Source: Prochlorococcus sp. AG-402-C09 (GTDB taxonomy: Bacteria > Cyanobacteriota > Cyanobacteriia > PCC-6307 > Cyanobiaceae). Taken from it: 64,000 bases of DNA. The position numbers and the translations under genes were made by a program. Shown in pieces: positions 39,835 through 45,354 of the stretch. The DNA is taken from contig QCHN01000002.1 of the NCBI GenBank assembly GCA_003279565.1, forward strand, positions 124,001 to 188,000, given 5' to 3'. Position 1 is the first letter of the stretch, and the number at the start of each line of letters is the position of its first letter. Below the pieces are notes generated by a model. That model was not told the origin of the DNA and searched no databases. It saw only the letters and a program-made list of their open reading frames with translations.

Positions 39835-39895
39835 CGCAGATTAATTTTTTTCCATGGGGAAAAAGATTTTTGAGATTGTCCTAAATATGTTCAAG

Positions 39896-39969
39896 GGCGA
39901 GCGAGGGGATTCGAACCCCCGAATAGCGGCGCCACAAGCCGCTGCCTTAACCACTTGGCGACGCCCGCC
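39896..39969 (-). tRNA. tRNA-His (anticodon GUG)
   Basis: On the minus strand the acceptor GCGGGCG pairs with CGCTCGC (one G-U pair), with the extra 5' G and C73 that mark tRNA-His. The anticodon arm has loop CTTGTGG/TTGTGGC giving GUG, and the T arm is GGGGGTTCGAATCCCC. CCA is not encoded. It lies 61 bp upstream of miaB. Confidence 0.96.
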
Positions 39970-40174: not shown

Positions 40175-41491
40175 GTGAATTTCGCAAAAGATGTTGAATT
40201 GATTGCAAGTCCTCCAAAGTCTGGGCGAGTAGATGTTCTTGTTCCAAGATGCTTGATTGGTAATGGACAGGATTTGTTAGGAACCTCAATTGATCAAGAA
40301 GGTTTGTCCTCTGTTCAGGTTGAGTGGCGAGATGGAGCAATTACATCAATTGGGGGCTTGCAAGAAACTTCAAAAGTCCCTAAGGAAATCCTTCTGCCAA
40401 GATTTGTAGAACCTCATGCACATATAGATAAAGCATTTTCATGGTCACGTTCACCTAACTTGAGGGGTAGTTATCAAGAAGCTTTAGAAGCAAATCTCCG
40501 TGAATATGAATTGAGGTCCGAAGAAGAATTAATTTTCAGAGTTGAGAAGTGTCTCAATCTAGCTCTTGTTAATGGGATTAGGGCAATTAGATCTCACATA
40601 GATAGTTATGGAAAAACAGCAATGAGAGATTGGGATCTGATAGAAAGTATTAGAACAAAATGGCAAGAGAAATTCTTTTTACAGTTTGTGGCTTTGGTTC
40701 CATTAGATTTTTGGCAAAGTGATGAAGGTGAGCTTTTAGCTCAAAGAGTTGCCTCCAACGGAGATCTTTTAGGTGGGGTGATAGCGCCTCCTTTCAATAA
40801 GAGGAAGACTTTTAAGTCCTTACTTCACCTAGTGCAACTTGCAAATAGACTTAAGTGTGATATCGATCTTCATATTGATGAGTCTCAATTTTGCCCAGCT
40901 GGGGGATTGAAATTACTTCTAGAAGTATTAGGCCAAGTTAAAAATGAGATATCAATAACTTGTAGTCATCTAAGCAGCATGGGATTGTTAAGAGAAAAGG
41001 AGATTTCATTTTTAGCGAACAAAATGGCTAAGAACAGATTAAAAGTAGTTGCTTTACCATTAACTAATTCTTGGCTTTTAGGAAGAAAAGATCGATCCAC
41101 TTTAACGAAAAGACCACTAGCACCGATTTTTCAACTTCAAAAAGCTGGAGTCGATGTGTCTGTAGGAGGAGACAATATAAATGACTCATGGTTCCCTCTA
41201 TCTAATTTTGATCCTATAAATTTAATGTCGTTTTCCATGCCAATTGCTCATCTATCTCCCTGGGACAGATTGGGCCTTTCTCCATTTACTTGGTCTCCAG
41301 CAGATTTACTTAGCCTTAAATGGGATGGCCTTTTTCAAAGTGGCAGTCCTGCAGATTTTATTTTGTTAGATTCAAATAGTTGGGTAAAAGCTTTGTCTGA
41401 AAGACCTAAAAGAAGAGTAGTAGTTAATGGTGAATTCTTGAATGAATTGCCTAAAAACAAAAAATCAACATACAATAATTCTCATCCATGA
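40175..41491 (+). CDS. Amidohydrolase related to cytosine deaminase
   Basis: 438 residues from GTG 40175. A metal-dependent hydrolase with PRFVEPHAHIDKAFSWSR near residue 75-92 (HxH), AIRSHIDSYGKTA near 142, DIDLHIDESQFCPAGG near 230, ITCSHLSSMG near 267 and the late Asp in SVGGDNINDSW near 330. This order is that of CodA-type deaminases, but the substrate is uncertain. The start of the FAD oxidase gene overlaps its stop by 4 bp, so the two form an operon and may act in one pathway, for example breakdown or repair of a cyclic nitrogen compound; that is a guess. Confidence 0.85.
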   Translation: MNFAKDVELIASPPKSGRVDVLVPRCLIGNGQDLLGTSIDQEGLSSVQVEWRDGAITSIGGLQETSKVPKEILLPRFVEPHAHIDKAFSWSRSPNLRGSYQEALEANLREYELRSEEELIFRVEKCLNLALVNGIRAIRSHIDSYGKTAMRDWDLIESIRTKWQEKFFLQFVALVPLDFWQSDEGELLAQRVASNGDLLGGVIAPPFNKRKTFKSLLHLVQLANRLKCDIDLHIDESQFCPAGGLKLLLEVLGQVKNEISITCSHLSSMGLLREKEISFLANKMAKNRLKVVALPLTNSWLLGRKDRSTLTKRPLAPIFQLQKAGVDVSVGGDNINDSWFPLSNFDPINLMSFSMPIAHLSPWDRLGLSPFTWSPADLLSLKWDGLFQSGSPADFILLDSNSWVKALSERPKRRVVVNGEFLNELPKNKKSTYNNSHP

Positions 41492-42840
41492 CTAATAAAG
41501 AGAAAGTAGAATTGCTTTTAAGTGAACTAAAATCAGTACCTGATCTAGAGATCTATCAAAAAACTAGTGATTTAAAAAGGTTCTCTAAAGATTTCTTTGA
41601 GTATTCACCGATATTGATTAATGAATTAAAAGATTGCTTGGCTGACATAGTCGTTCGACCGCTTTCGGTAGATGCAATTATTGTTGTGGCTCAAATGTGT
41701 AATAAGTATTCAACTCCTTTGACCCTTAGAGGTTCTGGAACAGGGAATTATGGTCAATGTGTTCCACTTAACGGTGGAGTCGTTATGGTTATGTCTGGTC
41801 TTCGGAAAATTAGAAATTTCGATTCAAAATCAGGTGAAGTTACAGTTGAACCTGGTTGTTTGCTTAGAGATATTAATGATGAGTTGATTAAACATGGTCG
41901 TCAGTTACGTTTGCTTCCGAGTACATGGAGAAGCGCTTCCATTGGTGGCTTTATTGCTGGTGGTTCAGGTGGAATAGGATCCGTTCGCTGGGGGTTCCTT
42001 AGAGATCCTGGGCATTTGCAGGCCTTAGAAGTAATAACGACTGAGGATTCACCAAGGAAACTTGAATTGAATGCAAACAATTCTGAAGCTTTAAATCATG
42101 CTTATGGAACTAACGGAATAATTACTGCATTGACATTGACAACTGCTCCATATATTGAATGGCAACAAATAGTAGTCGATTGTTTTGATTTTGATCAAGC
42201 GGTTGACTTGTTAAGCAGATTTAGTTGTGGAGCACTGGAGCTTTATTTGGGAACTTTGTTAGAGAAAGAAATTGTTAATTATCTTCCCTTTGGATCTGGC
42301 AAACCTTCAACCAATCATAGAATTTTACTATTAGTCTCACCTGATGGTGTTAGTACCATTGAGCGACTTGCAAAATCGGCTGGAGCAGATTTTGATGACT
42401 TAGGTCCTGAAAATCTTAAGGTAGGGACAGGCCTTCGAGAGCTTTCTTGGAACCATACTACTTTGCATATGCGTGGGATTGATCCTAATTGGACATATTT
42501 GCAAATGCTTCTTCCTCAGCCTGAGTTAGAAATGATGAAAGAATTGAAATCCGAGTGGGGATCAAATCTTTTATGGCATTTGGAATGTGTTCGTCAAAAT
42601 GGAGTTCAAAGATTAGCTTCACTTCCTCTTGTTAAGTGGCAAGGTGAAGAAGCTATGAATAAATTAATCACTCAATGCAAAGACCTTGGTGCAGTGATTT
42701 TCAATCCGCATACAATCACTGTTGAAGATGGAGGCCTAGGTGTAATTGATTCTGATCAAGTGCAAGCTAAGAGTAACTTTGATCCAAAAGGGATTCTTAA
42801 TCCAGGTAAACTCAAAGGGTGGAATCTAAAAGTCAATTGA
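41488..42840 (+). CDS. FAD-linked oxidase, GlcD-like (FAD-binding type 4)
   Basis: 450 residues. The N-terminal FAD domain has TPLTLRGSGTGNYGQCVPLN near 72-91, MSGLRKIRNF and VTVEPGCLLRDIND. STWRSASIGGFIAGGSGGIG near 148-167 is the pyrophosphate-binding loop; the C-terminal part ends with KSNFDPKGILNPGKLKGW, the usual end of glycolate-oxidase-like proteins. The Cys for covalent FAD is not evident. It lacks the Fe-S partners of glycolate oxidase in the neighbourhood. Its ATG lies in the stop of the amidohydrolase gene (ATGA overlap). Substrate unknown. Confidence 0.88.
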   Translation: MTNKEKVELLLSELKSVPDLEIYQKTSDLKRFSKDFFEYSPILINELKDCLADIVVRPLSVDAIIVVAQMCNKYSTPLTLRGSGTGNYGQCVPLNGGVVMVMSGLRKIRNFDSKSGEVTVEPGCLLRDINDELIKHGRQLRLLPSTWRSASIGGFIAGGSGGIGSVRWGFLRDPGHLQALEVITTEDSPRKLELNANNSEALNHAYGTNGIITALTLTTAPYIEWQQIVVDCFDFDQAVDLLSRFSCGALELYLGTLLEKEIVNYLPFGSGKPSTNHRILLLVSPDGVSTIERLAKSAGADFDDLGPENLKVGTGLRELSWNHTTLHMRGIDPNWTYLQMLLPQPELEMMKELKSEWGSNLLWHLECVRQNGVQRLASLPLVKWQGEEAMNKLITQCKDLGAVIFNPHTITVEDGGLGVIDSDQVQAKSNFDPKGILNPGKLKGWNLKVN

Positions 42841-45264: not shown

Positions 45265-45272
45265 CAATGAAG

Positions 45273-45354
45273 TGGGAGCGGTCGGACTTGAACCGACAAA
45301 CCCGAAGGTGCCGCATTTTGAGTGCGGTGCGTCTACCAATTCCACCACGCTCCC
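45273..45354 (-). tRNA. tRNA-Leu (anticodon CAA)
   Basis: On the minus strand GGGAGCG pairs with CGCTCCC, the discriminator is A, the anticodon arm is CCGCA-CTCAAAA-TGCGG giving CAA, and there is a long variable arm (CACCTTCGGGTTT) as expected for leucine. T arm GTCGGTTCAAGTCCGAC. CCA is not encoded: CTT follows. argD begins 8 nt downstream. Confidence 0.97.

Follow-up and report, generated by a model that had tools for sequence, protein, structure and literature searches.

Which compound would a picocyanobacterium process with a CodA-like deaminase and a flavoprotein resembling glycolate oxidase, encoded side by side? The question is raised by two genes of Prochlorococcus sp. AG-402-C09, for an amidohydrolase (AmdH) and an FAD-binding protein (FAD protein), that lie in the window, i.e., the whole stretch of 64,000 nucleotides that was analysed. 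An earlier note on this DNA had seen in them a linked pair from no pathway that it recognised. This view has been overtaken in part, since the FAD protein falls into a family with a solved member that its depositors assigned to folate catabolism. The evidence presented here places the pair in enzyme families linked to the degradation of vitamins of the folate type and suggests that it probably clears damaged folate or pterin in the cell.

The gene pair and its surroundings

The two reading frames have the four nucleotides ATGA in common (Table 1), as had been described from the sequence, and this overlap of stop and start codons may provide for translational coupling. Pfam domains were assigned to both products, Amidohydro_3 to AmdH (1.1e-7) and FAD_binding_4 to the FAD protein (1.3e-27). 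A tRNA-His gene (39895-39968) and miaB are found on the 5' side, and on the 3' side the convergent folC (TIGR01499, 261.5 bits vs a cut-off of 162.65) ends 25 bp downstream of the FAD gene and is followed by argD and murA. The pair had been considered to stand apart from other metabolic genes, which is partly right for this arrangement but overlooks the folate gene folC. The argD reading frame as listed (GTG at 45348) overlaps at its 5' end with a tRNA-Leu gene (45272-45354), so that the true start of argD is probably further in. A promoter scan of the region gave three promoter-like sites vs 8.2 expected in shuffles, none of them above chance.

Table 1. Coordinates of the two genes and of their sequence motifs in the window
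Feature	Position	Strand	Description and basis
AmdH gene	40175..41491	+	GTG start, 438 aa; fold of cytosine deaminase; NF005759 is the best NCBIfam model, with a score under its cut-off
AmdH H81-A-H83	40415..40423	+	HxH metal-ligand motif; alignment, roles presumed from CodA
AmdH L232-H233-I-D-E236	40868..40882	+	Metal ligand and catalytic Glu; alignment, roles presumed from CodA
AmdH D333-N334	41171..41176	+	Metal-ligand Asp, then Asn; sequence and alignment
ATGA stop/start overlap	41488..41491	+	Overlap of AmdH and FAD genes; reading-frame list and sequence
FAD protein gene	41488..42840	+	ATG start, 450 aa, VAO/PCMH-type, 6v42 homologue
FAD-protein motif RGSGTGNYGQ	41728..41757	+	Residues 81-90; alignment including 6v42
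FAD-protein signature SWNHTTL	42445..42465	+	Residues 320-326; W321-T325 invariant in 21 relatives and 6v42

The FAD protein matched 23 loci with Prochlorococcus in their record titles, at 86-95% identity. In a sample of 14 of these loci both genes evidenced purifying selection, with pN/pS values of 0.15-0.31 for AmdH (13 comparisons with Prochlorococcus relatives, AmdH of locus L038 being left out since the frame used contained a stop) and of 0.13-0.18 for the FAD gene (14 comparisons).

Conservation of the pair in picocyanobacteria

The distribution of both genes was followed in 151 genomes from the family of the window, taken as Cyanobiaceae. AmdH was present in 127 (E <= 0.001), and 139 had the FAD protein (E <= 1e-40); the 126 genomes with both genes had them adjacent, on one strand and with AmdH first in 120 cases. 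Five of the six exceptions belong to one genus (g9) and carry the genes on different contigs, one of the five AmdH matches being weak and partial, and in the sixth the matches lie at contig ends. Thirteen of the 139 FAD carriers had no AmdH match and a single genome had AmdH without the FAD protein, some of these genomes being incomplete. The two genes were also seen together in 19 of 20 fetched same-family loci, and the neighbours ddl, miaB, folC, argD and murA were each found in 17-19 of 21 stretches (the window and these 20 loci). The AmdH-FAD pair is thus real and old. The suggestion that the two genes belong together and are conserved as a pair in picocyanobacteria is borne out by these counts, with separation in only six of 126 genomes, and so is their retention in a small genome, as the pair is kept in genomes below 2 Mb.

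In three loci of larger same-family genomes (L098:11096-13880, L101:10959-13680 and L113:6082-8900) genes for a dgcA-like protein of the enolase superfamily, a dgcN-like protein (DUF1611) and a DUF4359 protein lie directly upstream of the pair, the dgcA- and dgcN-like matches having been checked for L098 only. In L143 and L144, from genomes without an AmdH match, two same-strand families are located between the side of miaB and the FAD gene, and the start of one of them looks dgcA-like by eye. A creatininase-family protein (PF02633) was considered as a third partner within the family and rejected: it occurs in 151/151 genomes, often in two copies, including those without the pair, and is therefore uninformative about it.

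Occurrence outside the family and the transporter-linked cluster

In a phylum sample of 194 genomes the FAD protein was detected in 51 (E <= 1e-40) and AmdH in 48 (E <= 1e-10), some of the AmdH matches being distant (22-25% identity). Subtraction of the 13 matched same-family genomes left about 181 genomes, among which unmatched members of the family may remain: 30 carried both genes, eight the FAD protein only, five AmdH only and about 138 neither, or 25, 13, three and 140, respectively, with a strict AmdH cut-off. Thus, AmdH was present in 30 of 38 FAD carriers vs five of about 143 other genomes (25 and three with the strict cut-off), a co-occurrence with a Fisher p value of 8e-22 (4e-18 with the strict cut-off), in a statistic that ignores shared ancestry. 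In the cyanobacterial loci L115 and L149 a binding protein, an ATPase, a permease, AmdH and the FAD protein are encoded in a row, and other cyanobacterial loci contain parts of this cluster or have AmdH and FAD genes unlinked.

The FAD protein also matched 164 plasmid records, which form a highly redundant set since 109 are from Rhizobium. From these and from a set of 141 records, about two thirds Rhizobium, 16 loci were hand-picked for diversity. AmdH (missing in the Agrobacterium cluster L170), a creatininase-family protein (missing in L173), a homologue of the THI5-like binding protein (missing in L171, annotated as a permease in L088) and RidA (missing in L173, taken from the annotation in L172) were each found in 15 of the 16, and a flavodoxin-like NAD(P)H reductase in nine. 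The oxygenase or 2Fe-2S partner varies among clusters, and the regulator is of the LysR type or, in the one tested, RutR-like. The binding protein is NMT1/THI5-like, its weak solved relatives including a formylaminopyrimidine-binding protein and THI5, and the neighbouring oxygenase resembles thymine dioxygenase as its third best match. In the annotated plasmid neighbourhoods, for which the gene table is incomplete, no folate or pterin gene and no gene of thiamine synthesis was named.

Two further loci deserve mention. L150 (genome G212) contains a 150-aa reading frame matching the FAD family near AmdH and a creatininase-family gene, so the cluster may be decaying there; in the Klebsiella record CP125156.1 (L090) the same cluster was found, its AmdH and creatininase matches being fragmented. 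Among viral contigs, pattern scans gave 47 and 128 stretches, none of which was confirmed as a relative, and phage records had no match to the pair.

The binding protein of this importer gave one weak match in 101 same-family genomes and no match in the other 100, and no transporter matched beside the pair in any of the 20 loci L095-L114 from the same family or of the 23 Prochlorococcus loci. The THI5-like importer alongside the genes, together with creatininase and RidA in proteobacteria, indicates that the module is probably catabolic in proteobacteria and in some other cyanobacteria, and the missing binding protein indicates that the substrate is probably internal in the family of the window.

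Family of the FAD protein

Judged by sequence, the FAD protein is a member of the flavin oxygenase family of PDB 6v42. It matched 6v42 over residues 10-446 (phmmer, 3.6e-85; next match 8.1e-16), a profile of 21 relatives matched it at 1.2e-183 (next family 4.5e-26), and all 59 columns invariant across these relatives are retained in the aligned 6v42. Identity to 6v42 is 36% for the window protein and 66% for the protein of a Rhizobium cluster, which means that the transporter-linked cluster and 6v42 represent one family. The entry is titled "Crystal structure of the flavin oxygenase with cofactor bound involved in folate catabolism", and the folate assignment of the family rests on this title; the molecule name in 6v42/6v43 is FAD/FMN-containing dehydrogenase. 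A literature search that did not extend to folate found no paper on 6v42. Because the AlphaFold model of the FAD protein is poor (pLDDT 44.6), the homology argument relies on sequence, the fold search having served mainly to name 6v42. In a quick tree without bootstrap, with many rows of skewed composition, the picocyanobacterial FAD proteins were split from the rest (SH-aLRT 100).

A link to the oxidation of glycolate or other 2-hydroxy acids was not supported. The protein scored 83.5 bits with the GlcD model (TIGR00387) vs a cut-off of 567.9, only residues 55-233 being matched and FAD-oxidase_C missing, so membership in GlcD was rejected; its closest structure is the flavin oxygenase of folate catabolism. 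Of 61 genomes of the family, 35 contained the FAD-oxidase_C domain of GlcD and 26, including that of the window, did not; the folate-type FAD protein was carried by 31 of the former and 23 of the latter. In genomes without this domain a "glcD" label may denote the folate-type FAD gene. The window genome has two other FAD_binding_4 proteins. One, judged by its length, is presumably MurB; for the other, a weak match to BagK/FevA was all that emerged.

The amidohydrolase

A fold search with the AmdH model (mean pLDDT 53, best around residues 100-260) retrieved the CodA/AtzC fold with Z of about 16-17, and sequence comparison likewise grouped AmdH with cytosine deaminase and AtzC. The residues H81, H83, H233, E236, H265 and D333, to which we assign metal-ligand and catalytic roles from CodA, are intact, and the metal ligands and the catalytic Glu are invariant in 18 aligned sequences, CodA included; D333 is followed by N334, where wild-type CodA has Asp314. 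The column of CodA Gln156, which we take to be a base-binding residue, is occupied by Pro176 in AmdH, and Lys86, after the HxHxD motif, is invariant among 17 AmdH relatives whereas CodA has Thr there.

The best family model was NF005759 (PRK07583, "cytosine deaminase"), with 245 bits for the window AmdH vs a cut-off of 403, and 231-267 bits for three same-family relatives. Loci L088, L115, L116 and L125 scored 588-675 bits and Rhizobium L089 704.5, but three importer-linked proteobacterial AmdH proteins reached only 310-337, so that the score alone proves little. None of the Pfam and NCBIfam families matched by AmdH is named pterin deaminase. The phylogeny against a protein of known substrate, a check named beforehand, left CodA far off and gave the picocyanobacterial AmdH a clade of its own (SH-aLRT 84), with the rest in another, again in a quick tree without bootstrap and with many rows of skewed composition. 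Beside the metal ligands seven picocyanobacterial and ten other sequences differ at clade-specific residues (S264/G, S267/C, W300/FY, L302/Q and W339/F). These changes, together with the low NF005759 score, suggest that the substrate of the picocyanobacterial AmdH may have shifted.

Proposed function and alternatives

With about even odds, the pair represents a picocyanobacterial form, without the transporter, of a module that breaks down folate or pterin. AmdH would act as a metal-dependent hydrolytic deaminase that most likely takes the 2-amino group off a pterin to give a lumazine. The FAD protein, a flavin oxygenase of the 6v42 type, would prepare the pteridine ring for opening by oxidising or oxygenating it; in proteobacteria the creatininase-family protein could then open a cyclic amide and RidA hydrolyse an imine. 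A pterin deaminase and a pteridine oxygenase are proposed on the basis of the tie of the 6v42 family to folate and of two points of chemistry: the pyrimidine ring of pterin is isocytosine (2-amino-4-oxo-pyrimidine), a natural target for a CodA-like deaminase, and the chemistry of creatininase-family proteins and RidA suits ring opening and imine hydrolysis. Pterins are photosensitisers, and in the family of the window the pair would most likely clear internal pterins arising from the oxidative or light-driven breakdown of folate. The data show the pairing of the genes and its spread, the place of the FAD protein in the 6v42 family, the intact catalytic residues of AmdH and the lack of the binding protein in the genomes sampled; from these we infer the pterin substrate, its deamination by AmdH, the order of the steps and the role in internal damage control. 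The full form of this proposal, an importer-less endogenous disposal system of pterin deaminase and flavin oxygenase that removes photo-damaged pterins and was retained through streamlining as a damage-control pathway, is put forward tentatively and is somewhat doubtful. The earlier idea was that the two genes are linked and may handle a cyclic nitrogen compound. The linkage stands, and such a compound is the most likely substrate by the argument above; the tie to glycolate oxidase is not supported.

The convergent folC would fit a folate-related role, but its position next to the pair belongs to a conserved gene order and is weak evidence. Several observations count against a pterin: the low identity of the window FAD protein to 6v42, the lack of a named folate or pterin gene in the incompletely tabulated plasmid neighbourhoods, the AmdH scores and changed residues next to the metal ligands, and the FAD carriers without an AmdH match (13 in the family and Agrobacterium L170). 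The binding protein, the RutR-like regulator and the thymine-dioxygenase-like neighbour would suit a simple pyrimidine equally well.

Judging from the aligned residues, the surroundings of the active site are altered in the picocyanobacterial branch, which may act on another compound. This branch could have changed its substrate after parting from the importer-linked branch and now be specific for an internal non-pterin compound, as would agree with its own clade in both trees, the group-specific residues beside the AmdH metal ligands, the virtual absence of the binding protein and the AmdH score below the family cut-off. We consider this rather unlikely, since the catalytic residues, all 59 invariant FAD-family columns and the pairing are preserved and importer-linked proteobacterial AmdH proteins also fall below that cut-off. 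Also unlikely is a module for a substituted aminopyrimidine (e.g., the thiamine pyrimidine HMP or a methylated pyrimidine) that AmdH would deaminate and the FAD enzyme oxidise. The FMN reductase and RidA are reminiscent of the Rut pathway, and the weak THI5 and formylaminopyrimidine-binding relatives, the RutR-like regulator and the oxygenase point the same way; against this, 6v42 was assigned to folate catabolism and the annotated plasmid neighbourhoods name no thiamine synthesis gene, although no folate gene either.

Cooperation of the pair with the upstream dgcA/dgcN-like genes in the turnover of D-glutamate or peptidoglycan peptides would explain the same-strand order dgcA-dgcN-DUF4359-AmdH-FAD in L098, L101 and L113, but it is very improbable: these families are missing from the window stretch, its close relatives and 20 other cyanobacterial and eight plasmid loci clustered together, and the DgcA and DgcN scores are far under their cut-offs. 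That the FAD gene is the glycolate dehydrogenase (GlcD) of picocyanobacterial photorespiration is scarcely credible, for despite the GlcD-like FAD domain and its presence in 23 of the 26 genomes without the GlcD C-terminal domain, the protein is much nearer to 6v42 than to GlcD and accompanies FAD-oxidase_C in 31 of 35 genomes.

If the proposal of pterin clearance holds, some of the most abundant phototrophs have a defined route for degrading the remains of their own folate. Two widely kept genes that pass as "cytosine deaminase" and "glycolate oxidase" would then be explained, the search for glycolate oxidation in picocyanobacteria would lose one candidate, and the handling of photolabile cofactors by a streamlined phototroph could be tested directly. 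The cluster shared by proteobacteria and cyanobacteria could be assayed as one pathway.

Comparison with known systems

No account of the pair or its cluster was found in the literature on the subjects searched, folate not being among them. A paper on the Rid family (PMC4433059) connects Rid genes with FAD amine oxidases and with the metabolism of pyrimidines and arginine; its accessible part does not name the AmdH-FAD cluster. A link to riboflavin catabolism was rejected, the accessible part of PMC12746152 mentioning neither "creatin-" nor folate nor pterin; that of PMC13155685 mentions no folate, pterin or 6V42, and the literature on homarine and HMP catabolism offered nothing connecting to the pair.

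The protein families are known already, and the importer-less picocyanobacterial pair is a variant of them. With GlcD the window FAD protein has the N-terminal FAD_binding_4 domain in common, but it is without the FAD-oxidase_C domain and far below the cut-off. AmdH shares its fold with E. coli CodA and AtzC and its metal site with CodA, from which it differs in Pro176 and Lys86. The members of NF005759 (e.g., in Rhizobium L089), its best-scoring family, have the same partner gene and the same catalytic residues, whereas the window AmdH lies below the cut-off, in a separate clade and with group-specific residues. To 6v42/6v43 the FAD protein is related by full-length homology, shared motifs and every family-invariant column, although the closest compared Rhizobium gene is transporter-linked and the window gene is not. 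Compared with the transporter-linked catabolic cluster, the window pair stands without a THI5-like ABC transporter alongside.
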